Shown: positions 1,267 through 63,884 of the stretch, piece after piece
Numbering within the stretch: position 1 is the first letter of the stretch
Layout of the letters: each line of letters opens with the position of its first letter
Assembly (NCBI GenBank): GCA_027603945.1
Contig: JADIIU010000040.1
Coordinates: forward strand, 43,652 to 107,651
DNA length: 64,000 nucleotides
DNA from: Terramyces sp. JEL0728
Lineage: Eukaryota; Chytridiomycota; Chytridiomycetes; Rhizophydiales; Terramycetaceae
Direction of reading: 5' to 3'
The notes under the pieces: model-generated
Told to the model about the DNA's origin: nothing
Database searches by the model: none
The model's input: the letters and a program-made list of their open reading frames with translations, nothing else
Position numbers and translations under genes: made by a program

Positions 1267-2604
1267 TTATTTCCAATGAATAGTCCCATTGTTTGGAGCA
1301 GGTTGTATCTGCAGTAGTTTACATAACAGTCCGTAGATTTCTATATTGTGCAGAGGGAAATCGTAATGAATATCGAGAGATTTGTCAGTAGATACGAAAA
1401 TAGAGTGCATATCTGGATGGTGCTCTTCGTATCCGTGAGTTCCTAGAGTTAGATCCGAGTACCTTTGGGAAATGGCGGCTGGTCTGGGCTGTACGTAGAT
1501 CTAAATACAAAATTCCATCCTCGTTCAGGAATCAATAGAATTGGACCAACTCTGATATTGTCATAATGAACATCATACGGAATTTCGTCTTTCAGCCAAA
1601 TTTTAAAGGTGCCTTGTGATTTTGCTTCTATTTTGAATTTATCTGCGATGGCTCTTGTTTGTGCTTGGATTTTGGGATACAGGTAGACTAGGACTCCATT
1701 GTAAATCACATCGTATTCATTTTCTGGCACTAAATCGTCCAAGTAAATAACCTTTGCGACATCCGTTGCACCCATCCCATGATCGCTGACGATTACAATC
1801 TCAGTAGTCGATTCAATCTTTCTATCTGCAATTCCATAAAGCAATTTGCCAAATCCATCATCCTGAGGTTAATTTTGCTTACAATTTCCTTTAGAGTAGT
1901 GTTTACCAAGTCGGATTCTGGTCCAGCTACATGCCCGCTGTGGTCTATATCAGGAAAATACACCGAGATGATATTTGGTCTTTTGTTGGATGGCAAATCA
2001 ATCCAATTGAATATAATTTCGAGTTTTTCGTCTATTGTTGTTGACTGATTGAATTTCTTCCAGTATGTAGCATAAATCCCATCTACAGCTGCTTCACTGC
2101 CCGGCCAAAAACACACTGCAGATTTCAGCCCGTTCTTTACTGCCGTAATCCAGATTGGTTCTCCATTCCACCATCTAGATTCACTGTTTTTCATTGGATC
2201 AGTATAGACAAATGTATCATTAAGGACAGGGTCGTAAAATGTGTTACCAACTATTCTAAATTAGCTATTAGTAACCCGTGCGATTCGGGATACAGTCCTG
2301 TTGCGAGTGTATAATGGTTCGGAAATGTGATTGAAGGAAATACAGGAATCATTTCTGTTTTAAATCCGCTAGATCCGATCTTGTTTATATTCGGAGTTAA
2401 TCCACGTTCAAGGTATTCCGGCCTAGTGCCATCCAGTGATACCAGGATTACAAGAGGACGGTCTGCCTTGGTGTAGTGCAACGTAAGAACTGAAGCTCCG
2501 AATAAAAATAGGGCTGCAACATAAATAAACTTTTTGAAGCTCTTTTTTTCCTTCAATAGATGTGATTCGATAATTAATTCCTGTTCTATTCTCTCCAGAT
2601 GCAT
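1267..2604 (-). CDS. Ectonucleotide pyrophosphatase/phosphodiesterase (ENPP/NPP), type II membrane protein
   Basis: A 425-aa enzyme of the alkaline-phosphatase superfamily that hydrolyses phosphodiester or pyrophosphate bonds outside the cell or in a lumen. A hydrophobic segment (about residues 26-45) follows a charged N-terminus, giving a signal anchor. The metal-site motifs are present: LVSLDGTRPEY, the nucleophile Thr in ITFPNHYTLATG, DIDHSGH, SDHGMG and a late THGYEEHHPDM. Three 20-nt introns are needed (2256-2275, 1863-1882, 1443-1462); removing them restores PESHG-IVGNTFYDP, KEI-DDGFGKLLYGI and PFPKG-THGYEEH. Only 37 nt separate its ATG from the stop of the upstream CoA-transferase gene. 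The substrate cannot be told from sequence. Confidence 0.9.
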
Positions 2605-2641
2605 TTGATTTTCAATGATCGCAAATAAGTTACAAAGTTTA

Positions 2642-4045
2642 TTAAATTAGGACTTTAAATCGTTCGTATGCCTGTTTAGATAATTCATCTTGGTGGGATG
2701 GGTGAGCAATTTTGATCATGGCTTTTGCTCTTTCTAGTAAATTCTTTCCAAACAGATATGCGATTCCGTTCTCCGTTACAACGTAATGCACATGGTTTCT
2801 TGTTGTCGTGATACCAGCTCCCTGCTTGAGAAATGGTACAATGGTAGATCCGCCAGACTTTGCGATAGATGGGAGACAAATTATGGGCAAACCCCCTTTA
2901 GATATGGAAGCCCCGTATTCAAAGTCGCATTGTCCGCCTAGTATAAGCTCATGTTACCCACACCAGATATCATTCTGCTGCCTACAGAATCTGCACAAAC
3001 TTGTCCTGTGATGTCGACTTCAACCGCTGCATTGATTGCTGTCACTTTGGGGTTCTTGCCAATTACACTTGGATCATTCACGACTGAAATATCATTAAAG
3101 TGGATAGAAGGGTTGTCATCCACAAAGTCATACAATCGTTTAGTTCCCATGGCAAAAGCAGTAACTGTTGTATGAGGAAAATGGAATTTTTGCGAGTTAT
3201 TCACTACCCCGCTTTCAATGAGAGCAATCACACCGTCAGAAAACATTTCAGTGTGGATTCCCAAATTCTTGTGATTCTTTAGACATTCCAATACTGCGTT
3301 GGGAATACCACCAATTCCCATTTGTAACGTAGCTCCATCTGGAATCAGTTCTGCCAAATGCTTCCCAATTGCTAATTCAACCGGACTAGCTTTTGCTGGC
3401 GCGATTTCTGGGATGGGTTCATTCACGTCTACAATGGCATCAAATGAATTAATATGAACAAATGATTGCCCTGGATGTTAATCAAAGCTACCATGAGTGC
3501 GCGGCACATTTGGATTAATTTGCGCGATCACCAACTTGGCAGTTTCTACTGCAGCAAGCGCAGTGCACACCTGTATAAAATATATGTTACTTCCAGGCCG
3601 AGAGAGCAAAATCCATGCTTATCAGGAGTGGAGACATTCAGAAATGCAACATCCGTAGATCTAACTCCATTGCGCATCAATTTAGGCAGATCCGACAAGA
3701 AGCAAGGAATCAAGGAACTGATTCCCTCTGCTACCTGTTTTCGCTGATTTGGTCCAATGAAATAATTCGAGACAAAGAAAGAATCTTTCAATTCGGTTGT
3801 CGAGCATGGATTCTCAGGGATAATATGTAAATGATCGATTTCAACATTCCTTAATTCTCTTCTTTTTGCCAATGCGCTTGCTAATACCGTTGGGAATGAG
3901 GCTACACCATGCATGTAAATTCTATCTCCGGAATTCACCAGCTTCACTGCGTCATCTGCATTCAATAATGGCGGCGGTGATCCTGCGTTAGCTTGAACCT
4001 ACTTTTGAATGAAAGAAAAGTTTGTTTAACAGTTTTGGAGAGCAT
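2642..4045 (-). CDS. Acetyl-CoA hydrolase / 4-hydroxybutyrate CoA-transferase family, mitochondrial
   Basis: A 440-aa class I CoA-transferase of the acetyl-CoA hydrolase/transferase family. At 440 aa it is closer to the 4-hydroxybutyrate CoA-transferase subgroup than to the longer yeast Ach1. Visible blocks include SGDRIYMHG, the catalytic-Glu region HTEMFSDG, GVGGQCDFEYGAS and RNHVHYVVTENGIA. The first exon encodes a basic leader without acidic residues (MLSKTVKQTFLSFKRS), a likely mitochondrial presequence, and its ATG at 4045 is in frame only after the first intron is removed. Introns are 3983-4002, 3571-3590, 3471-3491 (21 nt) and 2938-2957. The enzyme would move CoA between acetate, succinate or hydroxybutyrate in the matrix. 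Confidence 0.88.
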
Positions 4046-4171
4046 ATAAACCTTTCATTTTTTCAGCTTAAATGTTTGTGAATAATTGTGAGCAAGAATT
4101 CCTCAGCGATCATAAGATGAAAAATCAAGGTAACGAATTACTATATTTGGTATCATTTCGTGGATTGTTTA

Positions 4172-5632
4172 TCAGTTTGTAGGGCCCTTTTCAGTAGTTT
4201 TCCCATAGTTTTTTGGCGATGCTCTCTTTCTCCTTCCCAGATGCAATGCAGCCTCCCTTAATGATTCGTACATCTTGCAAATCACAACATTATGAATCAT
4301 GTAGCAAAACGAGAGGACAGCTTCGGAAGCGAGCGCATTCCTGTCATTTTGAAGCGCTGACGTTGCGTACCTGAGAATGGAAATTACGATAAACAGCAAG
4401 CAGTTGAACAAATGAACCAGCAAAATACTAAAGATGCTTCCATTTGATAGCAAAACCTCTTCTGTAGTCTCCTTAGTCTTTTTTGCCTTTGTGAGCTGTT
4501 GGAAGAATACCATTTTGAATATAATCAACGGAGGGATCAAATCAAACACAAACATAAACAGCATCCAAGCAATCTGCAGGTTAAAGGCAATATTTGCTAT
4601 TGCGTAATATGCCATTACATCTGTCAGTGCGAAAAAACATGATACATAGTATGGGCCAACCAGCGAAAAGTGCAATGCAAGGAGGGAAACGCTTCCCACA
4701 ATTAAAAATAGATTAGAATTGCTCTTCTTATTGATCTCTGTGGTGATTCTGAAGCTGATGAGCACGGAGAGCAAAGAGCACACTTCTGTGGTTCCAAGTA
4801 ATGCTTTGAATAGCGCGACATCTGTGCTGCTATGAAAAACTGCGTATGTGTAGTATACAACCAACAAGGAGCGTATTAGCCATAAGGTTTGAGTTGTAAA
4901 CATTGCGAAATCTCGCAGTTTCTTTGATCTTCCGCTATATAGTTTTTGGCCGTACACTGAAGACGTTACCAGAAACCCTCCAATAGTCAGCGCAAACGCT
5001 ATCAGCGCTATAATTTCCATCGTTGTGTGTGAATTTGGAACAAGCATCCAGCTTGGGGTATACGCAATCCATCTGTAGTCCGTGATTCCGCTATTTACCG
5101 TATGCTGCGACACTGTGATACCTCCAAGGTATAATGAATTGTAATAGGCAGGATCCATTGATAGTGGATAGTACTCTGCATTTCCTTCAATTATATATTT
5201 AGTACCGTTACAATTCGTTCCTCCGTAAACCGTCAAATGGGTATTATTGCAAATAAACTGGGATTCCGTACATGAATTGGAGTTTAAAAGAAACATATAG
5301 TCGTAACCCCAGATAGACATTCCGTCTCCTTCGATCATGCAATATTGACTATCAATTGCAGATTTTGGCGGTGATGTTTCAACTGTATAGTCGCTGGATA
5401 TCAAGTGTCGTGAAAAACTCTTGTATCCAAAAGTTTGAGTGGTATCTAGTGACGAAAAGCAGCATGAATATCCATTATACCCGCCTTCACTCCCGCACAA
5501 CGGAAATGGAAAGTCTTTCAATTCAAATCGATACAATTTCGTTGGTCTCGTTTCTTTAAACACAAGCATTGTTGAAGGCGGTCCTTGACAGGCATCAACT
5601 TGCCATGTGGACTGAAATACGGTGGATAGCAT
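4172..5632 (-). CDS. Seven-transmembrane receptor-like protein with Cys-rich ectodomain
   Basis: A 486-aa protein with a roughly 200-residue Cys-rich N-terminal region followed by seven hydrophobic helices; the first begins near MEIIALIAFALTIGGFLVTS and the seventh near SEAVLSFCYMIHNVVICKM. The basic cytoplasmic tail (LGRRKRASPK) fits a G-protein-coupled-receptor-like layout. I cannot place it in a named GPCR class. No intron is required after ATG 5632. The N-terminus (MLSTVFQSTWQVDACQG) is not a clear signal peptide, so a leader exon may be missing: a 19-nt GT-AG segment just upstream could join an earlier ATG in frame, but the resulting leader is no better. Confidence 0.6.
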   Translation of the reverse strand: MLSTVFQSTWQVDACQGPPSTMLVFKETRPTKLYRFELKDFPFPLCGSEGGYNGYSCCFSSLDTTQTFGYKSFSRHLISSDYTVETSPPKSAIDSQYCMIEGDGMSIWGYDYMFLLNSNSCTESQFICNNTHLTVYGGTNCNGTKYIIEGNAEYYPLSMDPAYYNSLYLGGITVSQHTVNSGITDYRWIAYTPSWMLVPNSHTTMEIIALIAFALTIGGFLVTSSVYGQKLYSGRSKKLRDFAMFTTQTLWLIRSLLVVYYTYAVFHSSTDVALFKALLGTTEVCSLLSVLISFRITTEINKKSNSNLFLIVGSVSLLALHFSLVGPYYVSCFFALTDVMAYYAIANIAFNLQIAWMLFMFVFDLIPPLIIFKMVFFQQLTKAKKTKETTEEVLLSNGSIFSILLVHLFNCLLFIVISILRYATSALQNDRNALASEAVLSFCYMIHNVVICKMYESLREAALHLGRRKRASPKNYGKTTEKGPTN

Positions 5633-5718: not shown

Positions 5719-7185
5719 TTAATCATTTCTATTGGCCTTGAAAGTAAAGAAATTTCTTGTTACTAGTCCTGGAGGCAAATAGTCTTGCTTGACAGGATCC
5801 TTGAATTCCGGGTTATATTTGTAACCATCGGAATATCCCATCTCTTTCATCAACTAATATTAGAACCGAGTACTGGTGTTGGGGCGTTTCTAATATGCAG
5901 AGGAACTGGGTAATTGGACTCTGTCTGGATAGTTTTGTGTACCATCTTTATCGCTTGATAGGTTTCAACGCTTTTTGGAGACCTAGCCAAGTAGGTAACA
6001 CAGTGCGCAAGTATAGCATCGCATTCGGGCATTCCTATTACTTGGCATGCCTGGTATGTCGATAACGCAAGCGGAAGGGCTTCATTATTTGCCAACCCAA
6101 TGTCTTCCGATGCAAACCGCACTGTAATTAATAAACATGAACCTAAACGTCTTGAAACATACAAGGGATCTTCTCCAGCATAAATCATCCTTCCCAGCCA
6201 ATACAGCGCGGCATTAGCATCAGAGCCTCTTAAACTTTTGTGCAGTGCTGATATAATATTGTAATGTTCTTCCCCATCCCTATCGTACAACACATTATGC
6301 TTCAAAATTGCCTTTTTAGCTAGTTCAATTGTGATTTCCTGGCCGCTCGACAAAAGATAATCTAATACGTTTAGCGCTGTTCTAGCATCACCGTCGCACA
6401 TGTTTGCAATATATCCATATACATCATCTGACACTGACTTTACTTTTTGCCCTTCGTTTTCCAAATCCATTATTTTAAGCTCCATTGCTCGTTTTAGAAT
6501 TTCAACTAAATACTCGGTAGTTAATTTTTCGAGGACGAATACACGCACTCTGGATAGCAGAGCATTGTTGACTCTAAAGGATGGATTCTCTGTGGTAGCC
6601 GCGATAAAAACATATTCTCCCTTTTCAATATCCAAGAATATATCCTGTTGCGCTTTGTTAAATCTATGAATTTCATCCAAGAATATGACTCCTTTAGTAT
6701 TTGTCCTTTTGTAATGCTCTTTTGCTTTAGCGATCGCTTGCTTTACGTCCTGGATGGTGTGTGTTGTTGCACTAAATTCCTTATACCATCTACTCCTGCT
6801 AATCAGCCTTGCAAGGGTGGTTTTGCCTTGTTAAGAAGATTATACCACATCCGGGAGGTCCGTAGAATATCATTGACGATAATCGATCGTTTTCAATCAA
6901 TTGGCGAAGGATTGAATCTTCCTTTACTATTTCCTGGCCTTTAAAATCCTTGAAATCCATTGGCCTTGACATTTCTGCCAGTGGTTCAGTCCTCTTTCTC
7001 TTCTTTGATGGTATCGATTTTGAATTTTCCTGCAATTCGCCTTTAGTTGCATCGTCGGTTTGCTTCATTGGCACTTCATTGGATTTTGCGGGTTTATCCT
7101 TTACCGCACCGCATTGAATATCCAAGTGAAAGTTTATTTCAGGCTCCTTTACTTTCTCTCCACAGATTGGACAATTAACAAACAT
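5719..7185 (-). CDS. MGS1: Replication-fork AAA+ ATPase MGS1/WRNIP1
   Basis: A 475-aa DNA-repair and replication-fork ATPase. An N-terminal UBZ-type zinc finger (CPICGEKV...HLDIQC) binds ubiquitin, probably ubiquitinated PCNA. A basic linker (KKRKR) may be a nuclear signal. The AAA+ core has Walker A GPPGCGKTTLAR, Walker B FLDEIHRF and sensor AATTENPSF, followed by the clamp-loader-like C-terminal domain ending YKYNPEFKDPVKQDYLP. The Walker A motif is split by a 19-nt intron (6827-6845) and the C-terminus by a 20-nt intron (5854-5873). Without both removals the conserved motifs are lost, which makes this a strong test of the short-intron model. Confidence 0.93.
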
Positions 7186-10339: not shown

Positions 10340-13013
10340 ATGATAGAACAAAAGCTGGATGTACATGACAAGGTTGAACTTCGAAAATCAGAAGACACCA
10401 TAAACAATTCACCGATTAGCCCAGCAGAAAGCACTCTTGAAAGTGCAGGCACATTCAATGAGGAATCTCCCAGCCCACCAAAACAGAAATGTTTAGTGAG
10501 GAGAGCACTAAACAAAGCAGAGACACAGCTGTTTGAAGCGGAAAATACAAAAAAATCTCAATTTTATGGAATCGAAACTTATTCTTCAGATGATGAGTGG
10601 GATCCATACGAAGAAAAGAAAAAAAGGGATTCAGATTTTTATGGATATGGACCAGAAATTAGTTATGAAAAAGAGAATTCGATTATACCTGAGGTCGCAG
10701 TTACCGTGCCCGTAGAAGACGATGTTACAATGCTGGCACTTACTTTTAGAATGTTTCTCATATCGACTGTAGTAGTTGGAACCACCAGTTCAACTGCAAA
10801 CTTTTTTTTCTTTAAATTAAATAGAGTGTATCTGGATGGTAACTAGGAATTAATGGTAGTGTTGTCTGTTATTATCTGTGCATATTTTATTGGGAATGGG
10901 ATGGCGAAATTACCAAAATCATGGAAATGGCTGAATCCAGGCCCTTTTACACACAAGGAGCACACATTGATTGCAATCGCTTCAATGGCGGCAAGCTCTA
11001 ATCTGGGAATGAATGTGATATCACTCCAAAGATTAGTGTATGGGAAAACCAACGATTCCAACTTTGTGAATAGCGGGATCAATATTGGCAACGCAAGCGC
11101 AATTTTATTCTTGATATCAACTCAATGTATTGGAATTGGGTTAGGCGGCTTTTTGAACAAGTATTTGGTGCTTCCAGCTACCTTTTGGTGGCCAGAAACT
11201 ATTACTTCTGCAAACTTGATCCACACTTTCCACAGCACTGTCAGCCATATCATCACAAAGTATCGTATGCTTGCGTTTTTCACTGTATTTGGCATTGGCT
11301 TTGTATATCAATTCCTACCACAATTTTTCATGCCTTTGCTCCAGTCGATTTCCATCCTATGTTTGGCAGCAGGAGGTGCTTCTGGAAAGTTCAATCCGCC
11401 TGATAAGCCAATAGCGAAACAGCATTACAAGCAGCCGTTGATTGGGCAATTAGGTTCAAGCCAAGGTGGCGGGATCCTTTCACTTACCTTGGATTGGACT
11501 GCAATTTCATTTTTGGATCCTTTGGTTACCCCAATCTGGTCCCAAGCCAATGTACTATTTTCCAGCTATTTCTTGGCGTGGATTGTTACCCCGATTTTGT
11601 TTGCTTTGAATACTTGGAGTGCTCAATCTTTTCCCTTATACATGCCTGTAAACTTTCTCCAAAATGGGACCAGATATAGATTACAGCAGTATCTGGTAAA
11701 TGACACACTGCCGGAAGGGGTTGAAGTGCCTCCAATGTGGATTCCGCCGTATTGGGCTATATGCTATGGCTGTGGGTTCGCAGCACTCTCATCTGTAGTC
11801 GTTCACTACTTGGTTCATTATGCTGCGAATTCATACAAAGTCTTTTTCCTCTCTTCAGACGAACTTGCTCAAAAAGATATCCACAGTAGATTGATGAAGA
11901 GATATGAACAAGTTCCATTGCTGTGGTATGTAGGCTGCACCGTTACAATGCTAATTATTGGCGCATATGTAACCACGCTCAATCCCATTGGATTTCAGAT
12001 CTCTGGCGACTTTTGGGTTATTCCTCTAGCTCTGCTTATTGCGACTGTGTTTGCAATTCCCACTGGTATTATCAGATCAATTTCAAATCAAACGATCGAT
12101 CTTTCCATTATCACTGAATTGATTATGGGGGTGCTTAAGCCAGGATTTCCCTTGGCAAATGCAACTTTTACCGCGTTTGCGAATGCTGCGTTGCAACAAA
12201 GTCTTGGTTGTGCTGCTCAAATGAAATTGGCCTACTACATGAAAGTTCCACCAAAAGCTGTCTTTATCATGCAAGTATATGGTGCTGCTTTAGGATGTAT
12301 CGGTTTGTTTATTATTAATTCTAGTAAACTACTTTTCGTTTGATTACATGGTTCGCAATGTTCCTCAAATCTGGAAAGCTACGCATACGATGTTTAGTAC
12401 CGATCAATGGAGTGGTAGATCGTCTGCTATTCTCGAAACCGGGTCAGAAATCTTTGGAGCTCTTTCCCCTTTGAGATTCTTTGATGGAAACAGCACTCCG
12501 TACAGCCTGCTCTTCTGGTTCTTTTTGCTTGGAGCAACTTTGCCTTTAGCGTTTTATTTATTAGCCCGATTCTTCCCTAAAGCTGGTTTACACTATGTCA
12601 ACTGGCCTATCATCTTTCAATCAGCTGCTGTCGTTGGCGGTGGCCATGGAAATGCTATTCTATCTGCCACGCTTGTTGTTATTGGAACTCAATTCTTTTT
12701 AAGAAAGTACAAACGAAGTTTCTATGACAAGTACAACTATATCACAGCTGCCGGTTTAGACTGTGCTGCCACTGCAGTGCCTATTCTGTTGTATTTACTC
12801 TCTCAATTAAAGAGAATCACTGCAGGTGGAACCCACTATGGCTGGGACGATATCACAGATCTTATTCCATATTACGCCTTGAAGCCTGACCCGACTACCT
12901 TTGGACAGGATTACTGTGGAGGATTCAAATTCTTTAAACCAAATCATACCGGTCAATTTAATGGATCAATAGCCTCTGGGTTCAACAGTACCAGCGGCCA
13001 TTCTTGGCATTAA
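10340..13013 (+). CDS. OPT-family oligopeptide/metal-chelate transporter, copy 2
   Basis: An 876-aa OPT transporter and paralogue of the gene at 7254-9707. Shared blocks include NPGPFTHKEH, QFLPQFFMPLLQSIS, QLGSSQGGGILSLTLDW, SGDFWVIPLALLIATV and a motif starting MGVLKPGFPLANATF. The Asp/Glu-rich N-terminus is longer than in copy 1, and a C-terminal extension after DYCGG is rich in Asn, Ser and Gly. Introns: 10839-10859 (21 nt, same site and phase as copy 1) and 12303-12324 (22 nt, absent from copy 1, where IVNYATMDYM is continuous). The predicted role is proton-coupled uptake of peptides or chelated metals at the plasma membrane; the substrate is unknown. Confidence 0.92.
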
Positions 13014-47685: not shown

Positions 47686-48162
47686 ATGAGACTATTCCGG
47701 AGTATATTTAAAGCAAAGCCAAGACAATTTCACTCGTCACTCAGTAAGTACAATTAATCTAGCCGCATTACATAAACCGTTCGAAAAACCCACTGATGCT
47801 GAAAAGCTGTCTGTCACATTCATTACACCTCAGCAAGAAAAAATAACTGTATATGCTAAACCAAATACCAATCTTTTGGATATCGCACATGGAAATAATA
47901 TCGATTTGGAAGGTGCATGCGAGGGTTCACTAGCTTGTTCTACATGCCACTTGATAATTGAACCAAAATTTTATTCAAAATTGGAGGAACCTTCGGATGA
48001 GGAAAATGATATGCTGGATTTGGCATTTGGATTGACCGAAACGTATTTTTGGATTAATCTAGTTCTCGTTTAGGATGCCAAGTAACGTTGACAAAGGAAT
48101 TGGATGGAATGACGGTTACAATGCCGAAAGCTACGCGAAATATGCAATTAAAGGACAATTAA
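47686..48162 (+). CDS. Mitochondrial [2Fe-2S] ferredoxin (adrenodoxin/Yah1 type)
   Basis: A 145-aa ferredoxin for Fe-S cluster assembly and haem or steroid redox steps. A basic leader ([18 protein letters not shown]) targets the matrix. The cluster cysteines are in [16 protein letters not shown] and the late RLGCQVTL, as in adrenodoxin; [26 protein letters not shown] is conserved but written here only in parts. Introns: 47744-47762 (19 nt) after the presequence and 48043-48062 (20 nt) splitting LTET-SRLGCQ. Its stop is 4 nt from the stop of EF-Ts. Confidence 0.95.
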
Positions 48163-49447: not shown

Positions 49448-52189
49448 ATGGGGTGTGCGTTTTGCAATTGCCATAACCATTCCTCCCTAATTAACAATGT
49501 ATATCCAAGCGGACCAGGAGAAGAAGGACCAAAGAGCTCCGCTCTTTCCCTTCTCATATTCTATTCAACCTCAAAACCGCAAAAATTGCCAAAAATTGGA
49601 GCCTATTTAGAAAGCAGAGTGGAGCAGGATTTAAGAAGAGGAAGATTTGGGTATCGTTCAATGTTTAATCATAGACACGTTAAAATCAGCCTTCACATTA
49701 TCAATTCCATCCTAAAGTATTTCTCAATTTACCATAGCGAATGCCAGCAGCATTCTTCATTGATATCAAAGAGCATCCTCAGAATCGTCCTTGCCATTCT
49801 CAACTGCCCTGATGCTGATTTAGTATTGTTGGCCACAAACACAGTATTTATTTTTTGATGCCAGTTTATATTGTTTTCAAGCGTCAGGACTAATGAAGAG
49901 AATATCGACCCAGAGTTCAATATCCTGCATAATCAGCTAATTAAAAAGTTTTGTGCGGAGGCTACACGCGAAACTGCCATCAGCGTTGAAAAGAACAAGT
50001 ACTTTTTAACTTAATTCAAGGTCGCGCCTATCAGGATTGAAAGCATTGGAGGCATTGTGCGACACCAGCTACTTTAATGAATTGTCGCATATTGAATCGT
50101 CAATGGATAATGTGTTTACCGCCATATTCACGAATCTTGATCTAAACACAAAGAGGGATTCCGGACTTAGGTATATTCTCGTTTATTCAGTAATCACTTT
50201 CCAAAGATGGGCGAATTAAAACCAAATCCGTTAGACAAAAGACAATCCATTACAGATCAATTGATTACAGACGATGAATTGAAACAAACTGCAGAAAGAT
50301 GTTTGATCAGCATATTTAAGAAATCAAATGCCACTACAATCAAACCATTGATTACCTGCACGTTCAAGTAATTTTCACTAATGTAGAAATTTGGATCAGC
50401 TCAAGTACTGGGAGAATTCATTGTATGTACAAAGATTAGTCCAAATGGTAGCGCATAACTGCGAAGTAGTTGTTTTTTGATATAGACCCAATATCACTAT
50501 GCGATTGTATCCCAATTATTAGACCGACTTGAAAATGAAGGAAATGTAATGATCAAATCTACCATTGTGAATGTTTTAGGAACATTGTTTTCGGACGGGT
50601 TCTTGGGAGGATTGACCATACCGGAACTATTGGATACTTTAATCAAGCACATGCAGGGAGTCACACTACAGCAAAAGACAGACCTGTCTGGAAGGAGACT
50701 ATTCCAAACTGGAATTGTCAGTACAATTGGCAATCTTTCCCAGAATATTGCGTATCCAAATCAAGCGAATGAAATGGTGTCTTTCTTGGTAAATAGGATG
50801 CAAAGAGACCACTCATACGGTTCGTTTTCCCCTACTGACAACGAGCTAGTCTTGTGCTTGCTTGAATGTATCGGAGCAGTAATGGAAAAGTACGGAAATA
50901 CCAATTCATCCCAAAAACGCTCGTCGGTGCTACCAACAACACTCTCTTACCATATTTTCACAGCGATTGTGCCTTTCCTGGAATCAAAGAGCTCAGAAGT
51001 GAGACTAGTCTTGTACAGTATTTTCTTGCGGGCAGTGCAATACGTGAGACTTGTATCAAAAACTGACCAGTACAGAAACGAATTTTTGGAAATGATACGA
51101 AGGAATATTTACATTCTTGCACTGTCGCCAAACAATACTCCAGTTGACTTTGTAATCTTTGGTAACCTGCTAAACGCAATGACTGCGGTAGATTTCAATG
51201 CTACTTTTGGGAAATCATCAAGTCTGTTATTCAATATTCAGGTAAACATTGCTAATCGTAGCAAAAAATGGCAGAAGCTGGTATTTCTCTATCGCAGCGT
51301 CGTGCCCTAGCTAGCATCACTGTCGAACTGTTATTGTCATTCGCCGACCTCAGTTCCAACACTGGCTTGACAACATATATGACCAACATTAAAAATTTAA
51401 GATTAGAAAAACAACAATGGTCTCCCGGAATTGAACTCAGCGAAAAGGCAATCCCTGCATTGAAAGACCGCCAATTTGATGATACTGAAGTCACCAGCAA
51501 ACCATTAAATTCTCCTGATGATTTGAATATCCAGGAAATTAAAGATTTGATAAAAGCTCAAGCTGAAAAAGACGCACCGGAAACTTTAGCAGATATGATA
51601 AAAGAATGGGATACAGAATACGATCCAAGTACGCATATGCTAATAGTAGATGTTGGTTCAAGTGGCGAGATTCTTGCTTCTTCCTTTGAAATGAATGCAG
51701 AATCACCTCCTCCAGTTTCTGTGGTAGTAAAGGTTACCAGAGTGAAATCGATCAAGAAGCAATCTAACCTTCCACACAAAAGATCGGCATCAGCAATCTC
51801 TTCAGTATTTTTAATTAACCATAGCGGTCCGAAAAGCCGACTGCAGTAGTCAGTGTTGCTGATTTCAACAAAGACGCTCTGGGTGTAGCCACAGATGCCA
51901 AAGCAGTAGCTCCGCAACTAGAGTCTCCTAAAGTAAACGACTTGCTTAAATCTATCACCGCGGCATTTGGGTAATTATCTATTAACCAAGATCCCGTCCT
52001 GCTAGTGCACCTGCAAAAGACGCTGAAAATGGCGACCATGAGCTAGAATGGCTAAAAACAAGATCTAGAGCTGTTAGTACGCAAAACAACCAAAGTAAAG
52101 CTCATAGGGCTAAATCTCCAACTGGACTGGTCCAGCTAGGGAAAATTAGAGAGCCTACCATCTTTGATCTGAAAGATGAAGATAACTAA
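49448..52189 (+). CDS. EFR3: EFR3, plasma-membrane scaffold of PI4-kinase
   Basis: An 859-aa HEAT-type helical protein that recruits Stt4/PI4KA to the plasma membrane. The N-terminus MGCAFCNCHNHSSLINNVYP carries the cysteine cluster palmitoylated in animals. PKSSALSLLIFYSTSKPQKL and KIGAYLESRVEQDLRRGRF are conserved. The tail ends in Pro/Ser-rich sequence and LVQLGKIREPTIFDLKDEDN. Eight introns: 49844-49864, 49999-50020, 50171-50190, 50368-50386, 50466-50485, 51242-51261, 51805-51824 and 51971-51990 (19-22 nt). Five of them fall within one 640-bp stretch, making exons shorter than 200 nt. All are of the GT-AG type. Confidence 0.9.
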
Positions 52190-52232: not shown

Positions 52233-52540
52233 TTAATGTAATTCCTCCAACGCTGCATCTTCCAACCCCGAATCTTTAAGTGCTTTTCTATTGGCTAATT
52301 TTCTCATTCTTCGACGATAGCTACATTAGCAGTAATTTACTCATCGTACTGACACTTTTGCCAAGTCAATCGTTCTAATTCACATTTCCATGGTTTGTAA
52401 AAATTTTCATGTCTACATTTGTTGAGCTCTGGTAATAAATGAGCGCAATAATCTCTCCAGGCTAATGGAATTTGGGTTTTGTTCAGCTCTTCTTGGGTGA
52501 TATACATTTTTGGAGGTTGCGAATCGTCGTGATTGGTCAT
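52233..52540 (-). CDS. Complex I subunit NDUFB7 (B18)
   Basis: A 95-aa intermembrane-space subunit of NADH dehydrogenase with a twin CX9C (CHCH) fold: YCAHLLPELNKCR and WKCELERLTWQKCQ, ten residues apart in each pair. The block IPLAWRDYCAH matches B18. One 20-nt intron (52321-52340) adds the C-terminal helix DYRRRMRKLANRKALKDSG. A working complex I argues for aerobic mitochondria, against a reduced parasite. It shares a 35-nt head-to-head gap with OPA3. Confidence 0.93.
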
Positions 52541-53358: not shown

Positions 53359-55554
<2,196 letters not shown>

Positions 55555-56904: not shown

Positions 56905-58731
56905 ATGTGTGGAATATTCGCAGTATTTGGATTTTCTGAAGGTCAAACAGAATTCCGCCAAAAAGCTACTCAACTGTCCAAAAAGTACTTCTCATCTAAC
57001 AATAGAATTCGTCACCGTGGACCGGATTGGTCTGGAGTTAAACTTGCCGGACAAAATATACTATGTCACGAGCGTCTGGCTATCGTTGGTGTTGGTATTT
57101 CCTTATTAATTTGCAGACTCTGGTGCACAACCATTGACCAATGAGGATGAATCTGTAATTTTAGCTGTTAATGGTGAAATCTACAACTATTTGTCCCTAA
57201 AGAAGCAATTGAAGGGTAAATACAGCTTCAAGACTCATTCCGATTGTGAGGTATTGCTGTATTTGGTAACACGCAATTAATGTTAGTGGCAAGAGCAAGG
57301 ACCAGATATGGTTAAAGTTCTGGATGGTATGTTCTCCTTTGTTCTTTACGATGTGAAGAAGGATATTTTCTTTGCCGCTAGAGATCATGTTGGAATCACC
57401 ACATTGTACCAAGGTTGGAGATCGTCAGACAATTCAGTTTGGTTCGCTTCCGAAATGAAGAGCTTGAACGAGGACTGCGATCGAATTGTTGCATTCCCGC
57501 CAGGGCACTATTACCTCAGCAGCACTAAAGAAACTGTTCAATATTATAACCCAAAATGGTACGGAGATATTGCAAGTGGAGTTCCGCTACTTTCGGCAGA
57601 AGATAAAGTATTGTCCCCAAAAGAAGATGAAGAAATGTACACTGCTATCCGCAAAGCATTAGAAGCCTCTGTTAAAAAGAGATTAATGTCTGAAGTGCCG
57701 TACGGTGTTTTGTTATCTGGCGGACTGGATTCAAGTTTAATTGCATCTATTGCAATGAGAATGCGCGGCACTGAAAATGGAGACGATGAAGACTTTGACA
57801 TTAGATGTAATTCAGATTTAACAGGTAGCTGGTGTATCTGCTTGGCCTTCTCTTCACTCTTTCTCAATTGGATTACCAGGTTCGCCTGATTTGGCTGCAG
57901 CAGAAAAAGTAGCTAAATTTTTGGGAACAATCCACCACGCATTCACATTCACTGTTCAAGAAGGTATAGATGCAATCTTTGATGTCATTCACCACCTTGA
58001 AACTTATGATGTAACTACCGTAAGAGCCAGTACTCCAATGTACTTGTTGTCTCGCAAAATCAAAGCTATGGGTGTAAAGATGGTTCTTAGCGGGGAGGGG
58101 TCTGATGAAATCTTTGGAGGTAGTCTTTGTTTTGACTCTAGGCTATTTGTACTTTCACAATGCTCCAACCGCTCAGTCATTACACCATGAATGTATTTCG
58201 CGTATCCAAAACCTTCATACCTCTGATAACTTGCGCGCAAACAAATCTACCATGGCTTGGGGGTTGGAAGCCCGTGTTCCTTTCCTTGACCGCCATTTCC
58301 TGGATGTAGCCATGGAAAAAGTACCTGCAAATCACAAATTAACTGGAGCTGGACCTTACAAGCACAATATGGAGAAACATGTCCTCCGTAAAGCTTTTGA
58401 TACACCAGAATCACCTTACTTGCCGCATGAAGTATTGTGGAGACAAAAAGAGCAATTCTCTGACGGTGTAGGGTACTCTTGGATTGATACTGTAAAAGAT
58501 TGGTCTGAAAAGAATATTACCGATGCCCAAATGAAGGAAGCATCCCGCCGTTTCCCACATGATACTCCAACTACAAAGGAAGCTTACTGGTTTAGAGAAA
58601 TTTTCGACCAACACTTTCCACAAAAAGCTTGCCTGGAAAGTGTAGTCCGTTGGATCCCAAGAAAAGACTGGGGATGTTCTGAAGACCCTTCTGGACGTGC
58701 TCAAAAAGGACACATTGCGTCTTATGAGTAA
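56905..58731 (+). CDS. Asparagine synthetase (glutamine-hydrolysing)
   Basis: A 579-aa class II amidotransferase that makes asparagine from aspartate, glutamine and [13 protein letters not shown] gives the catalytic Cys2; [25 protein letters not shown] and GMFSFVLYD complete the glutaminase part, and [17 protein letters not shown] is the ATP pyrophosphatase loop. [18 protein letters not shown] and [17 protein letters not shown] are conserved synthetase blocks. Introns: 57095-57116 (22 nt), 57266-57286 (21), 57807-57828 (22, skips an AG at position 18) and 58120-58141 (22). Confidence 0.97.
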
Positions 58732-58816: not shown

Positions 58817-59580
58817 TTAAGTATATTTTGGAATAGCAGCTTTGTAGCTGGTTGGAGCCTGTCCATTATTATGCAACCCACTTGCATTTGCGAGCTCTGC
58901 GAATCCTTTTTGCTGTTTCTGTACTGCTCCCAGCTTGACTGCCTTTTCAGCAAGCAACCGTTCTAGATTAATAGTAGATTACCTGATTCCGTCCCATGTC
59001 TTTCTCCTTTCCCATCCTTCTTGAGAGCATACTGCACAACAATGCTCCTATTCATGAGAAACCCTCCATTCATAGCCTCCATTGCGGCATCGGAAGAAGC
59101 AAAATTATCATAAAATATAAATGCAAATCCTTTCCCATCCTTTGTCCCTTGTACATCTCTGGAAATTTTTGGTGTTTGGGTCAACACTCCAAATACACCA
59201 AAGGTATCAAACAATAGCTTTTCGTCAACCATAGGGTCCAAGTTGCCTACGAACAGAGTAGCTCCAACTTCCACTACTTGGTTATCCTTTTCATTTGTAG
59301 CTTTGTTGACTCTAATAGGCTTTCCGAATAATTTGACCATGTTTAGTATTTTTATTGCGTAATCAGAGTCTTCTTCCGACATGAATTCTACAAATCCGTA
59401 TCCTTGATGTGACTGTGATACTCTGTCTTTTGGTAAATGCACGTTCACCACTGGTCCTGCTTGGATAAACAGTTCCCACAGTAACGGCTCTGTCGCTCTT
59501 TCGTCTACGTTGGCAATGTATACTGTCGCTTCTTGGTTACGATCGTCACCAAGTGGTAATGCTGCTGGCTGTTGCATCAT
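58817..59580 (-). CDS. Spliceosomal U2 snRNP protein SF3B4 (Hsh49), two RRMs
   Basis: A 247-aa SF3b subunit that holds the U2 snRNP near the branch site. RRM1 reads [20 protein letters not shown].. with the RNP1 YGFVEF, and RRM2 has LFVGNLDP with FAFIFY. After the RRMs a short tail starting ERLLAEK matches SF3B4's HGSAAERLLA. One 20-nt intron (58963-58982) splits TES-ERLL. The human protein has a long Pro-rich C-terminal tail that is absent here. In a genome with 20-nt introns this branch-site-binding factor is of special interest. Confidence 0.92.
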
Positions 59581-59633: not shown

Positions 59634-61894
59634 TTAAAAATCAAATTCATTTTTAAATGCTTCTAGATCGTGGCTATCACATGCAGCAGCCAAATCATCA
59701 CGTTTAACTACAATTAATTCAAATTACTGTAAGTGTTGAGCAACATTCTCAGTGCAGTCCATACACATTCGCTTTGTCCAATATGCATTTGAATCATTTC
59801 GTCCTTGTTGAACTGAGTTTTATCGTTGACTGCTTTCATGCTTGCCTCCTGTGTCGCCAGCGCACCTAAAAGGTACCCGGCAGCTTCCCTGTATTGACCA
59901 AACTGAATACAAGCTATCGCCAAGTTGTATCTAGCTCGAATATAAGAAGGATTGATTTCTAGTGCATGGAAATATGCATCCAGAGCCTTTTCTGCTTCGC
60001 CAGAATTGGCCAATGTAGCCCCCAGTTTATTCCACAGCTCGTAGTTGTCTGGTGTTTTTGATAATGCGGATTGGAAACAGTCTATAGCCTTCTTGTACTC
60101 CATGCCGATATTAAATAAAACTCCGAGAGCGGTTTGCACATCTGCATCAAGGTTATCCCCCGGTCGCGACATTGCTGCTTGGATAAATCGCTCAATAAGG
60201 TTTTCATACCGCTCCATACTCGATCCAGCTTGCTTGGACGGAAAGTTTTTGTATTCTGGATGTCTGCCTAACCATTGATTCAAACATTCATAAGCTTCAT
60301 TGTTGAAATTTTCGTTTGTGTGTGAAACAGCTAACGGAATGTAACTCTCAAGGTTTTGAGGATCAATGTCAATTGATTTACGGAATGCTGATATTGCTGC
60401 AAATTCATTTTCATTTTCCTGCTGTTTTTTCCCTAATTGATGCCAAGCTGTTGCATTTTGCGGATCTTTTTGTACCATTGCTTCTAATGCCAAGATAGAT
60501 TCAGTCAGATTGTGATTTGTTACAGAGCTAGCTAATTCCTCTGCAGTGTACTCTAAATATGGGTTCTTTTGGGAGAATTGATATTGACTACTCCTTGGAT
60601 CTGTAATTACATGTGCAGATTGCATATCTTTCCATGATTGTTCCATTTGATCCAACTGATCCTTTAATTCCCTGGTCTTTTCATCAATACTCATTTCATT
60701 TAATGTATTTGACAAGTCTTGCTGATACAATTCCTTTTCTCTTTCATCGTTTGGATCAATGAATTGCTGTGGGAAATCCATATCATGAGAAACATCACTG
60801 GAGAATTGCTGTTGCCGTTCGCCTGTTTCTTCTTTTGATTTAGTTTCATTTATTTCGTTTTGCCAGTTTCTTGGCGGAGCGTTTTCTTGTTCTTGCATTT
60901 CTTTGAATTCAGACTCCCATTGGATATCTCTTTCTTTGTTTAAATTTTGGTGCATTGGTTGAAAGTGTGGTTGGAAACCCATGTTCATAGGCTGATGCAT
61001 ATTCATCATTGGTTCCATTGCTGGTTCCATCCCCATCTGGGGATAGTTCATTCTACTATTTTCACTATTCTTGAAATATTCGTTCCATGAATTAGTTTCT
61101 TGCTGAACATCCTGAACATTTTGCATATTAAAATCTTCTTCCCAGCCACTACTATTAATCTTGGCCCCAGTATATTCCATTGCAGCTTCATGTGAAGAAG
61201 CAGGTGTAATCTGTTCAACCATCTTGTCACCTTCAACAGCAACTTCTCCATCACGCAGCTTTTCCATCATCTCCAAGAATTTGCTATTCTTGAACTTTGG
61301 GTTTTCAGAGTTACCCACAAGCTGTGCCAAGAGTCCAGCGGTTTTAGCAAGTGCATCTTTAGAATCATTAGATTCTATATTAAATTCTTCAGCCCAGTCA
61401 TTTTCCTTTTGAAATTCGTTTGCCCAATCGTTCTCTTTGAATTCGTTTGCCCAGTCATTTTGTTTTTGAAATTCATGTTCCCAAGACTGATTTTGAAACG
61501 CAAGTTCAAATTCCTTATCAGCTGGCCGATTATAAACCTGTTCAAAATGAGATTGCTGTTGGTATACCTGTTCCATATTGTGTTGCTGCAGCTGAGGATG
61601 GAATTCATTCACCCACTGGTGCTGGCTTTGTGTGTGTTGTTTAAATTCTCCTGCCCAGTCTTCTTGCATTGGTCCACCAATTGGTCCAGCAAGTATTGTG
61701 TTTGGTTCCAACCCCATAGGATTTAATTGTGGGACGAGTCCATTCATTTCGATTGGAATATCCATTCTTCCTTTCCTGATATTTGTTACAATTCTGTCAT
61801 TTTGTAATGAGATATCTTTTTCGAAATGTTTTTGTATTTGATTTATTGCAGAAGAGGAGCAATCCATTTTGCGGAGATTTTGCAAGATTTTCAT
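59634..61894 (-). CDS. PEX5: Peroxisomal targeting-signal receptor PEX5
   Basis: A 746-aa PTS1 receptor. The N-terminus has the monoubiquitination-type Cys at position 12 (MDCSSS), followed by nine WxxxF/Y repeats (WAGEF, WVNEF, WEHEF, WANEF twice, WAEEF, WEEDF, WNEYF, WESEF) that bind PEX14. The C-terminal half holds TPR repeats: AWHQLGKKQQENENE, NYELWNKLGATLANSGE and ARYNLAIACIQFGQYREA. One 20-nt intron (59708-59727) adds the final IKRDDLAAACDSHDLE helix. The PTS1 cargo candidate GST-kappa (ends SKL) lies in the same window. Confidence 0.95.
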
Positions 61895-62080: not shown

Positions 62081-62144
62081 CAATTAAATTTGCATTGACA
62101 AGTAGTTGAAATGGGTTTCCAAATCAAATTCTAAATCCAAACAA

Positions 62145-62597
62145 ATGACATCTCAAAAAGAAGGTAAAATAGCAGAGCCTTGTTTTGATTATTTACTAAT
62201 GGAAATCTCAAAAAGCAACTACGAATCACTAGACCAAATCGGCTTCAGAATCGGTTACTCAATAGTAGAAAGGATGACCAAAGATAAACCACGTATGCTG
62301 GACACTCTAGATAAAGTAAAATTCATCTGCAAAGATTTCTGGATGGGAGTATTCCAAAAACAAGTTGACAATCTCAAAGCGAATCACAGTAGAGGGATTT
62401 ACGTGTTGACTGATAATAGTTTTAGGATTATTTCTAGGCTTTCGAGTGATTCTATTAGCGGCGAGCAAGCTACTTTGTTTTATTCGCAGTACTTGGCTTT
62501 ACCTTGTGGGATTATCAGAGGTGCACTTTATAACCTTGGATTACCTTGTTCTGTAATGGCAGAAGTTACTTCATGTCCATCATGTAATTATCGTTAA
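62145..62597 (+). CDS. TRAPP complex subunit TRAPPC6/Trs33
   Basis: A 150-aa subunit of the TRAPP Rab-activating complex for ER-Golgi traffic. Key blocks are CFDYLLMEISKSNYESLDQ, GFRIGYSIVERMTKDKPRM, FWMGVFQKQVDNLKANH and LALPCGIIRGALYNLGLPC, typical of the TRAPPC6/Bet3 fold. No intron is seen. ATG 62145 is the first in frame (MTSQKEGKIAE). The 20-bp tandem repeat lies 65 nt upstream. Confidence 0.93.
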   Translation: MTSQKEGKIAEPCFDYLLMEISKSNYESLDQIGFRIGYSIVERMTKDKPRMLDTLDKVKFICKDFWMGVFQKQVDNLKANHSRGIYVLTDNSFRIISRLSSDSISGEQATLFYSQYLALPCGIIRGALYNLGLPCSVMAEVTSCPSCNYR

Positions 62598-62703
62598 CTT
62601 AGGTACATTTCAATTAAAAATAAAGTCTTGATCTTTATATTATTATATGCATTACTATTACTGTGCCAGAAGCTGTATACCATTTGATCAGCCAATCCCA
62701 GAG

Positions 62704-63369
62704 CTACTTTTTCTTTTTTAATTCTACAATCGGGCCATGAATACCGTAATCACCAATTTCACTCTCTTCAATAACCATAAACCTAATTACAACATCCACC
62801 GGCAGAGTATAAAAACACTTTTTCAATGCATTCAATATCTGCAATTCAAACGATCCCTTGATTATTGTTTTTTCATATCCATTCAACTGCTGATACAAAA
62901 TACTGAGTTTATAGAAATTGTTTTGTTTGATTGCCAGGTAGAACTGAATGTTTTTGTGGTTGGAAAAGAGTAGATTCTGGATTGATTGGGTTTGTCTTGT
63001 CTTTAATAAAATCAGATATCCTATCATTTCTTGATACTCTCTTTCTAATGAATCATTTTCAACTGCTGCCATTTCTATCTGATCTTGATTTCCAGCATTG
63101 TGCTCCAATAAGTTGATCACAGACAAGAGACAAACAAGTAGTTCTTTCCAGTCCTTTTCCATAATGCAATAATAAACATTACTTTTAATCACTTTAACAG
63201 CAAACAAATCCCTTCTATTGGTAAACAGCAATATTTCTCGTAATTTCCTATAGTCCAAACTATTAGGTTTCTCTTGGATTTGCTTGAATAGATCCACATG
63301 CAAGTCATAATCTTTTAATCTGGTGTCTGGCTCTGACCTTGAAATTAACTGAATTTCCCTGATTTTCAT
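62704..63369 (-). CDS. Possible SAC3/GANP- or PCI-like protein (weak)
   Basis: A 221-aa intronless helical protein. It has LEREYQEMIGYLILLKTRQTQ and FYLAIKQNNFYKLSILYQQL blocks and ends FMVIEESEIGDYG, a layout reminiscent of SAC3/GANP or other PCI-type TREX-2 proteins, but no residue pattern is decisive. It lies head-to-head with THOC7, a TREX subunit, with just 7 nt between start codons. The pairing makes an mRNA-export role attractive but unproven. The stop-free frame and clean ATG support a real gene. Confidence 0.5.
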   Translation of the reverse strand: MKIREIQLISRSEPDTRLKDYDLHVDLFKQIQEKPNSLDYRKLREILLFTNRRDLFAVKVIKSNVYYCIMEKDWKELLVCLLSVINLLEHNAGNQDQIEMAAVENDSLEREYQEMIGYLILLKTRQTQSIQNLLFSNHKNIQFYLAIKQNNFYKLSILYQQLNGYEKTIIKGSFELQILNALKKCFYTLPVDVVIRFMVIEESEIGDYGIHGPIVELKKKK

Positions 63370-63376
63370 TTTTAAA

Positions 63377-63884
63377 ATGAATGATCAGATTATAAAACAG
63401 AGATTGTTTTTGGATACAAGACCGATTAAAAAGAGTTTGAAAGCGTATCAGGAAGGGAATTTGTTTGAACTAAAGCAGTTGGTATTTCATTTTAATCTAG
63501 GTACAGCTCAACTAACCAAAGGAATATTTGTTTATAAAAATAGAAATTCAAGCTAAAATGTATGAAACAGAACTGCAAAACTATATTGCCAAAATCAAAG
63601 AAAAAGAATCAGAAATTATAGAAAAGGAAAGCGAAATCAACAGCTTAAAAGAAATCCTACAAACAAAGAAACAAGAACAAGTGCAAAAGAAGCAATACGA
63701 TGAAGTTTGTTTTTCTATTTCAGATTACTATTCAACCAAAAAGACTCTTGTGGAAATTAACAGAATTAATGGTTTGATTAAAGAGATTCAAGGAGAGATT
63801 AAGGAAGCTGAACAGGAATTCGAAAGGAAAAAGAAGCTGTTTGCGTGCATTTTATCTCAAATTCATTCATTAAAAACAATTTAA
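63377..63884 (+). CDS. THO complex subunit 7 (THOC7)
   Basis: A 155-aa coiled-coil protein of the THO/TREX mRNA-export complex. The N-terminus IIKQRLFLD matches the VIRKRLLID start of human THOC7; YETELQNYIAKIKEKESEI and KKQYDEVCFSISDYYSTKKT, and RKKLFACILSQIHSLK at the end follow the human order closely. A 40-nt segment (63482-63521), made of two abutting introns, must be removed to join LKQL-EYLFIKIEIQAKM; removing only one leaves a stop. It starts 7 nt from the neighbouring divergent gene. Confidence 0.88.
63482..63521 (+). other. Two abutting introns (19 + 21 nt, AG|GT) in THOC7
   Basis: A 19-nt unit GTATTTCATTTTAATCTAG is followed directly by a 21-nt unit beginning GTACAGCTCAACTAACC and ending AAAG. 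Each looks like a complete intron with its own branch-like motif. Together they are 40 nt. Splicing only the first leaves an in-frame TAA; the second alone leaves a wrong frame. Removing both yields the THOC7 coiled coil. Confidence 0.65.

Follow-up and report, generated by a model that had tools for sequence, protein, structure and literature searches.

The stretch of DNA analysed here, hereafter the window, comprises 64,000 nucleotides (nt) of contig 40 (positions 43652-107651) of the chytrid Terramyces sp. JEL0728, the genome of which is assembled to 15.0 megabases (Mb) in 231 contigs; the GC content of the window is 39%. Its protein-coding genes, among them those for MGS1, NOP58, glutathione S-transferase (GST) kappa, HPRT and EFR3, are interrupted by segments of about 20 nt, which an earlier note on this DNA had read as a genome-wide system of spliceosomal introns. 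As judged from genomic sequence, these are almost certainly introns of the U2 type that have shrunk, across the genome of a true fungus, to about 20 nt. The introns of the window are listed below, in window coordinates; unless the line says otherwise, they come from a gene finder with a learned length prior (the trained model; see below). Fractions give the alignable homologues that are gap-free within 8 residues of the junction, after exclusion of homologue rows with less than 35% identity or without a counterpart around the junction.

1443..1462, minus, 20-nt intron
1863..1882, minus, 20-nt intron
2256..2275, minus, 20-nt intron
2938..2957, minus, 20-nt intron, acetyl-CoA hydrolase gene, inside Pfam stretch
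3471..3491, minus, 21-nt intron, acetyl-CoA hydrolase gene, inside Pfam stretch
3571..3590, minus, 20-nt intron, acetyl-CoA hydrolase gene, inside Pfam stretch
3983..4002, minus, 20-nt intron, acetyl-CoA hydrolase gene, outside Pfam stretches
5185..5205, minus, 21-nt intron
5854..5873, minus, 20-nt intron, MGS1 gene, inside Pfam stretch
6827..6845, minus, 19-nt intron within the Walker A motif, MGS1 gene, inside Pfam AAA
9230..9250, minus, 21-nt intron, presumed OPT transporter-like gene
10839..10859, plus, 21-nt intron, presumed OPT transporter-like gene
12303..12324, plus, 22-nt intron, presumed OPT transporter-like gene
13270..13288, plus, 19-nt intron
13902..13921, minus, 20-nt intron
14215..14234, minus, 20-nt intron
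14836..14855, plus, 20-nt intron
14916..14935, plus, 20-nt intron
15222..15240, plus, 19-nt intron
15438..15457, plus, 20-nt intron
15488..15509, plus, 22-nt call, weak, without branch motif
17453..17470, plus, 18-nt intron
17924..17943, plus, 20-nt intron
21557..21577, minus, 21-nt intron, protein kinase gene, inside Pfam stretch
21783..21802, minus, 20-nt intron, protein kinase gene, inside Pfam stretch
22044..22064, minus, 21-nt intron, protein kinase gene, inside Pfam stretch
22428..22448, minus, 21-nt intron, protein kinase gene, outside best Pfam stretch
27083..27104, minus, 22-nt intron, NOP58 gene
27199..27219, minus, 21-nt intron, NOP58 gene, beyond the part compared with PDB
27928..27948, minus, 21-nt intron, NOP58 gene (KEWYGWHFPE), PDB alignment
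28390..28408, minus, 19-nt intron, NOP58 gene, PDB alignment
29206..29225, minus, 20-nt intron
29541..29561, minus, 21-nt intron
29635..29655, minus, 21-nt intron
29850..29869, minus, 20-nt intron
31729..31747, plus, 19-nt intron, WD40 gene, outside Pfam stretches over the cut-off
32153..32171, plus, 19-nt intron, WD40 gene
32354..32374, plus, 21-nt intron, WD40 gene, weak branch motif
32851..32869, plus, 19-nt intron, WD40 gene
32956..32976, plus, 21-nt intron, WD40 gene
33202..33222, plus, 21-nt intron, GST kappa gene, taken from the earlier note, not called by the model, structure alignment
33369..33390, plus, 22-nt intron, GST kappa gene, positioned manually, not called by the model, structure alignment
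33947..33968, plus, 22-nt intron
34163..34183, plus, 21-nt intron
34247..34266, plus, 20-nt intron
34621..34639, plus, 19-nt intron
36137..36157, minus, 21-nt intron, ATP synthase gamma gene, inside Pfam stretch
36557..36577, minus, 21-nt intron, ATP synthase gamma gene, inside Pfam stretch
37939..37959, minus, 21-nt intron, ubiquitin hydrolase gene, 114/115
38039..38057, minus, 19-nt intron, ubiquitin hydrolase gene, 120/120
38123..38142, minus, 20-nt intron, ubiquitin hydrolase gene, 115/116
38276..38294, minus, 19-nt intron, ubiquitin hydrolase gene, 119/119
38680..38699, minus, 20-nt intron, ubiquitin hydrolase gene, 117/117
39145..39165, minus, 21-nt intron, ubiquitin hydrolase gene, 108/112
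39241..39262, minus, 22-nt intron, ubiquitin hydrolase gene, variable N-terminus, 3/48, homology support absent
40033..40052, minus, 20-nt intron, presumed phosphodiesterase-like gene
42605..42624, plus, 20-nt intron
42902..42921, plus, 20-nt intron
43577..43596, plus, 20-nt intron, HPRT gene, PDB alignment
43737..43755, plus, 19-nt intron, HPRT gene, PDB alignment
43900..43919, plus, 20-nt intron, HPRT gene, PRPP loop, PDB alignment
45464..45483, plus, 20-nt intron, presumed cysteine synthase-like gene
46568..46587, plus, 20-nt intron, ZPR1 gene, inside Pfam stretch
46951..46971, plus, 21-nt intron, ZPR1 gene, inside Pfam stretch
47357..47377, plus, 21-nt intron, ZPR1 gene, outside best Pfam stretches
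47744..47762, plus, 19-nt intron, presumed ferredoxin-like gene
48043..48062, plus, 20-nt intron, presumed ferredoxin-like gene
49717..49737, plus, 21-nt intron, EFR3 gene, 11/11
49844..49864, plus, 21-nt intron, EFR3 gene, 14/14
49999..50020, plus, 22-nt intron, EFR3 gene, 12/13
50171..50190, plus, 20-nt intron, EFR3 gene, 2/3
50368..50386, plus, 19-nt intron, EFR3 gene, 6/7, deposited protein differs by two residues
50466..50485, plus, 20-nt intron, EFR3 gene, 7/7
51242..51261, plus, 20-nt intron, EFR3 gene, 2/3
51629..51649, plus, 21-nt intron, EFR3 gene, 0/2, retained in-frame in deposited protein
51805..51824, plus, 20-nt intron, EFR3 gene, 3/5
51971..51990, plus, 20-nt intron, EFR3 gene, 2/5
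52321..52340, minus, 20-nt intron
54574..54593, minus, 20-nt intron, SNF2 helicase gene, inside Pfam stretch
54805..54824, minus, 20-nt intron, SNF2 helicase gene, inside Pfam stretch
54954..54973, minus, 20-nt intron, SNF2 helicase gene, inside Pfam stretch
55261..55280, minus, 20-nt intron, SNF2 helicase gene, inside Pfam stretch
55381..55400, minus, 20-nt intron, SNF2 helicase gene, preceded by a 6-nt exon, outside Pfam stretches
55407..55425, minus, 19-nt intron, SNF2 helicase gene, followed by a 6-nt exon, outside Pfam stretches
56923..56941, plus, 19-nt call, weak, without branch motif, asparagine synthase gene, outside Pfam stretches
56985..57005, plus, 21-nt intron, asparagine synthase gene, outside Pfam stretches
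57095..57116, plus, 22-nt intron, asparagine synthase gene, inside Pfam stretch
57266..57286, plus, 21-nt intron, asparagine synthase gene, inside Pfam stretch
57807..57828, plus, 22-nt intron, asparagine synthase gene, inside Pfam stretch
58120..58141, plus, 22-nt intron, asparagine synthase gene, inside Pfam stretch
58963..58982, minus, 20-nt intron, RRM gene, presumed to resemble SF3B4
59708..59727, minus, 20-nt intron, presumed PEX5-like TPR gene
62584..62602, plus, 19-nt intron
63482..63500, plus, 19-nt call, weak, abuts the next call
63501..63521, plus, 21-nt call, weak, zero-length exon before

The length class was established on 264 kilobases (kb), formed by the window and 20 further 10-kb stretches (21 stretches in total), using a dicodon coding score trained on 185 long open frames within the same 264 kb. 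In an unseeded scan, which made no use of homology, we counted for 13 dinucleotide pairs the excisions that join two coding-like flanks of 60 bases and remove a stop or a frameshift. Only GT..AG peaks, with 15, 32, 11 and 11 excisions at 19, 20, 21 and 22 nt (69 in sum, as against 8 to 29 for each of the twelve other pairs over the same four lengths), although seven of the other pairs have more excisions overall; by eye, the sequences under the GT..AG peak have a common motif. A first scan, confined to the window, was too insensitive, its codon model being weak and its threshold strict: it gave 22 GT(A/T)..AG matches, four of them at 19-22 nt. A gene finder combining a motif table with a flat length prior was then run over 12-80 nt, in three rounds, and over 12-300 nt, with three motif tables with swapped letters as controls. 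In the former range 195/258, 207/275 and 200/267 introns lay at 19-22 nt, with a mode of 20; in the latter the real motif placed 144 of 255 introns there and the swapped-letter controls 1/153, 3/155 and 0/73. Above 22 nt the real motif gave 0.39 introns per nt of length, against 0.25-0.54 for the controls, and no longer length class was visible to the flat-prior finder up to 300 nt, unless such introns use another motif.

With a learned prior, the finder predicted 375 introns in 143 gene models. Nearly all of them (355, at 18-24 nt) form a single tight length class under about 25 nt, as in ultrashort-intron genomes; this trained model reinforces its own length peak, and it serves here for anatomy and not as a test. 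The short introns occur in 107 of the 143 models, at a density of about 1.9 per kb of coding sequence, and in 20 of the 21 stretches, so that the genome-wide distribution claimed earlier is borne out; stretch L028 is the sole one without a predicted short intron. Extrapolation of 355 introns per 264 kb gives about 20,000 in the 15-Mb nuclear genome. The unseeded peak and the flat-prior finder with its controls confirm the length class of about 20 nt. In the window, 95 introns were called by the trained model, 93 of which lie at 18-22 nt (one of 18, 17 of 19, 40 of 20, 26 of 21 and nine of 22 nt), in accord with the range of 18-23 nt and the mode of 20 first reported; the remaining two calls, of 39 and 40 nt, are both without the motif. 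The first and last intron bases of the model coincide exactly with the span originally given, 1443..63521. The total is lower than the approximately 120 introns of the earlier note, which were not itemised, and the model missed the two introns of GST kappa, which were placed by hand. Two local arrangements stand out: the abutting 19- and 21-nt calls at 63482-63521 may be two excisions in tandem, a single intron of 40 nt or a false prediction, and the SNF2 helicase gene has a 6-nt exon flanked by two introns within 55381-55425.

The predicted junctions were also compared with homologous proteins. The PRP8 gene, on a sampled stretch that stops just short of its stop codon, has six short introns; with these removed, the product aligns end to end with human PRP8 (4571 bits) and, against 40 of the 120 homologues listed, the junctions are gap-free in 39/40, 40/40, 24/25, 40/40, 39/40 and 38/39 of the alignable ones. 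The ubiquitin hydrolase gene has seven introns, and six of its junctions are gap-free in 108/112 to 120/120 of the alignable homologues (120 listed), whereas the ten introns of EFR3, compared with all 15 homologue matches, gave a mixed outcome. HPRT aligns with solved structures across all three junctions, and the first 423 residues of NOP58 do so across two of four. Among eight models tested against Pfam, 20 of the 32 short introns lie inside matched stretches (the kinase model being cut to 325 residues). Three of the cases singled out at the outset, MGS1 6827-6845, NOP58 27928-27948 and HPRT 43900-43919, appear in the trained model with exactly the same boundaries, and MGS1 reads GPPGCG|KTT over its Walker A junction after excision. 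The fourth, 33202-33222 of GST kappa, was missed by the model, which chose a later start codon, but its excision yields VSPFSWFGF, and the 64 surrounding residues match solved GST kappa structures (best E value 3.1e-17); without both introns the gene encodes a 216-residue protein that aligns along its length to such structures (E value 1.2e-35). The observation that every multi-exon model is a multiple of three after excision also holds; it does so by construction in our models, however, and is no independent evidence.

The 355 short introns have a uniform anatomy. The commonest donor is GTAATT (64/355), whereas GTAAGT, the usual donor consensus, is found in 10/355. At donor position +5, G amounts to 18%, no more than base composition predicts, and T to 50%; T is present at +6 in 64%. 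The GTA start previously described is evident in the 20-nt introns, 89% of which have A at +3; the exon end before them is A-rich, with G at -1 in 52%. A branch motif of the form YTRAY, likewise anticipated, is present in 276 of the 355, and its A is preceded by 13-15 nt of intron in 261 of these 276 (i.e., it occupies position 14-16) and followed by 5-6 nt to the intron end in 247. The branch position is nearly fixed, so that the spread from 19 to 22 nt comes down to a base or two to its left or right. The acceptors are TAG (220), CAG (92), AAG (41) and GAG (2), the interior is 74% AT, and the three intron phases account for 165, 107 and 83 introns. In-frame stops are in excess in the 21-nt introns (58/77, against 41.5 expected from the other frames), which could reflect selection or a detection bias; since the 19-nt introns lean the same way (49/68, 41.5 expected) and the 20- and 22-nt introns the other (99/178, 119.5 expected; 11/27, 14 expected), we claim nothing from stop counts.

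Some of the components expected of a U2-type spliceosome are present. The U2 small nuclear RNA (snRNA) has one locus (140 bits) carrying the branch-pairing GTAGTA, with which the branch motif is able to pair. The three core proteins sought, PRP8, SF1 and Yju2, were all found: PRP8 is identified by a PROCN domain of 774 bits, Yju2 is encoded with a conserved N-terminus, and for SF1 both parts of the SF1-HH domain match, in different frames, and are joined by removal of a 19-nt intron, read by hand, GTAATTTTCCACTTATTAG. Upstream in SF1, the sequence RRKTRWG resembles the U2AF65-binding motif. Taken together, the GT-AG ends, the nearly fixed branch motif, the U2 snRNA and the three proteins support the view that the introns are spliceosomal, as the earlier note had proposed.

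The host is a true fungus (Chytridiomycota, Rhizophydiales), so that the description "fungus-like" was too weak. An aphelid origin was weighed and discarded: Aphelidium insullamus has a GC content of 52%, and the main text of the paper on it does not contain the word intron. Its PRP8 is 98% identical over the whole length to that of Boothiomyces sp. JEL0866, a genus placed in the Terramycetaceae (the database was clustered at 90%, and a protein of the host strain itself would be hidden within the Boothiomyces row); the next rows are chytrids, at 83-90% identity over 35-100% of the length, e.g., Batrachochytrium, at 85% over 100%. For EFR3, the deposited protein of Terramyces sp. JEL0728 shows 99% identity, and the closest proteins for both PRP8 and EFR3 are thus chytrid. 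The deposited EFR3 protein leaves out eight of the ten segments exactly and is two residues shorter at another; it retains the 21-nt segment 51629-51649 as STHMLIV. These seven residues are absent from the Boothiomyces macroporosus protein, and their retention is likely to be an annotation error. In the JEL0866 PRP8 protein nothing extra is found at five of the six intron places, where its gene may or may not have introns; at the remaining one, where the host has a 20-nt intron ending TTTACTAACTGTAG, it carries seven extra residues, RLSFTNC, at which the other chytrids shown have nothing. Back-translated, RLSFTNC fits a 21-nt intron of the same kind, as judged from the protein alone, and therefore a second genus, Boothiomyces, probably has one or more introns of this type.

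Several observations weigh against reading the segments as U2-type introns removed by an ordinary spliceosome. The evidence consists of genomic DNA and protein comparison, the introns being predicted from sequence alone, and the introns of 18-24 nt on which the motif table was trained came from the same sequence, although the swapped-letter controls carry equal information. No motif of the YTRAY form is found in 79 of the 355 short introns, and the rigid pattern GTA N9 CTAAC NN AG is just slightly enriched genome-wide (54 matches, where its reversal has 40). The first ubiquitin hydrolase junction, in the variable N-terminus, is gap-free in 3/48 homologues, EFR3 junctions 8-10 are weak (0/2, 3/5 and 2/5), and none of the 120 ubiquitin hydrolase proteins listed is named Terramyces or Boothiomyces. 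Moreover, a genome search gave no match for U1 snRNA at E values up to 1, and for U6 snRNA just two weak, near-identical matches below the family cut-off, which we read as false; of two U6 pattern searches, one was empty and the other gave a single exact match that lies, by eye, in a helicase-like coding frame. Since neither U1 nor U6 was found, that half of the mechanism in which the donor is paired lacks support. A pattern for the conserved 3' region of the small-subunit ribosomal RNA also matched nothing in the assembly, and the plain reading is therefore that assembly gaps are the likely explanation for the missing U1 and U6; alternatively, the U6 snRNA may be altered or interrupted.

Could the pattern arise otherwise? 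Arbitrary excision can always repair frameshifts, and, with a motif model trained on the same data, sequencing or assembly errors combined with over-eager gene modelling might seem to suffice; yet the unseeded scan and the swapped-letter controls peak for real signals only, PRP8 closes at all six junctions, and the depositors' own EFR3 model leaves out eight of the ten segments, which makes this explanation very improbable. We consider it just as improbable that the segments are eliminated from the DNA, in the manner of the internal eliminated sequences of ciliates, the assembly being then of a germline-type genome: such elements are also short, precise and spread genome-wide in coding sequence, but the GT-AG ends, the almost constant spacing of the branch motif and the identity of the organism, a chytrid, argue against it. 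Minor (U12-type) introns are brought to mind by the branch-like TTAAC near the acceptor; however, the donor GTA(A/T)TT is unlike the U12 donor consensus, and a U2 snRNA with GTAGTA is present, so that there is very little to recommend this class. Least probable of all is that ribosomes hop over the segments, as in the translational bypassing of some yeast mitochondria. Bypassing would restore the frame likewise but leaves the branch motif and the acceptor unexplained and is not known outside organelles and phage.

Splicing of shrunken U2-type introns remains by far the favoured explanation, and convergent shrinkage to near the minimum of the spliceosome appears to be the best reading of their origin. 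The closest PRP8 and EFR3 proteins come from chytrids, which speaks against common descent with the nucleomorph, heterotrich or mikrocytid lineages and makes this an independent case. In the mechanism that we propose, U2 snRNA would pair with the branch motif and an ordinary spliceosome would form a lariat, its loop about 14-16 nt long and its tail 5-6 nt. The intron would be recognised as a whole, since it is too short to hold a polypyrimidine tract behind the branch or to keep U1 and U2 far from each other. The T-rich stretch from +5 to +9 may replace the polypyrimidine tract; a possible reader is a U1-linked factor of the TIA1/Nam8 kind. Length would be held at the minimum that still allows efficient splicing, with a strong selective penalty on anything shorter, as has been proposed for mikrocytids (PMC10245619). 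A switch at donor position +4 in yeasts has been linked to METTL16 and SNRNP27K (PMC10581693), whereas the change in the host introns is at +5. More tentatively, and with somewhat less than even confidence in the whole, we suggest a free-living fungus with a complete, non-reduced spliceosome, in which essentially all introns are of about 20 nt, recognition of +5 has been dropped and introns are defined by GTA, a U-rich stretch and a branch at fixed spacing. The failure to find U1 and U6 would then be explained if both had diverged in step with the donor, or if the U6 gene were itself interrupted by such introns; the state would be common to Terramyces and Boothiomyces and thus at least as old as their split.

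The likeness to chlorarachniophyte nucleomorphs and ciliates, drawn at the outset, is apt, and mikrocytids belong in the same comparison. Ordinary fungal introns share with those of the host the GT-AG ends and a YTAAY-like branch, but a survey covering 644 fungal genomes describes the Cryptococcus mean of 63 bp as relatively short (PMC8476143), whereas the host introns measure about 20 nt and have GTAAGT in 10/355 donors. Nucleomorph introns have an equal length range (18-21 nt) and are likewise many per genome; they number more than 800, in a relict endosymbiont nucleus (PMC10245619), as against about 20,000, by extrapolation, in a 15-Mb nuclear genome. Those of mikrocytids, at 16-17 nt, have a similarly narrow length range with a common motif but amount to 224, in obligate parasites with a reduced spliceosome (PMC10245619); the host, in which PRP8, SF1 and Yju2 were found, has far more. 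In Stentor, a heterotrich ciliate, introns are of 15-16 nt, with the branch A at position 10 and a 5-nt tail (PMC9505925). Stentor and the host are alike in a nearly fixed branch, AT-richness, a U2 with GUAGUA and a conserved Yju2 N-terminus (PMC9505925), and in the tail (5 nt, and 5-6 nt in the host); the loop is longer in the host (branch A at 14-16), introns occur in 18% of Stentor genes but in 107 of 143 host models, and the lineages are unrelated. Paramecium introns, also short and uniform, are longer, at about 25 nt (PMC5014332), in an unrelated lineage.

Minimal introns have been known from relict nuclei, parasites and ciliates. We found no paper describing the present introns in the literature searched, outside which lie most subscription journals, and no title on introns among the papers matching Boothiomyces or Terramyces, its strain or family names; this is the first ultrashort-intron case in a true fungus that could be found. 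How such genomes escape notice is illustrated by a survey of over 3000 genomes which excluded introns below 30 nt. As about 20 nt is close to the smallest intron that any cell is known to remove, the host offers a simple system for the study of minimum intron size and, being a strain-collection fungus with chytrid relatives in which annotated introns run to tens of thousands, allows direct questions: what a spliceosome has to give up for introns of 20 nt, whether it can do without G at +5 and whether protein loss is needed. In practical terms, the two deposited proteins compared each retain one intron-length segment in-frame.

Other features were recorded in the sampled sequence. Rfam gave no match at the gathering score in the window, where a transfer RNA (tRNA) scan also found none; over 33 further loci it gave one tRNA, one SNORA53 and the U2 mentioned above. 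The SNORA53 match, in a fungus, lies at 1745-1925 of stretch L019 and scores 55.8 bits against a cut-off of 38. Positions 1441-1660 of stretches L009 and L010 (contigs 199 and 111) are near-identical, with a difference of one T where compared, and identical pattern matches were found on the contig pairs 37/56 and 209/223, which suggests repeats or uncollapsed haplotype contigs. Within the window, two neighbouring related genes on opposite strands, at 7254-9707 and 10340-13013, are taken to be oligopeptide-transporter-like, and neighbouring tandem genes at 3-461 and 721-1260 are presumably universal-stress-protein-like.

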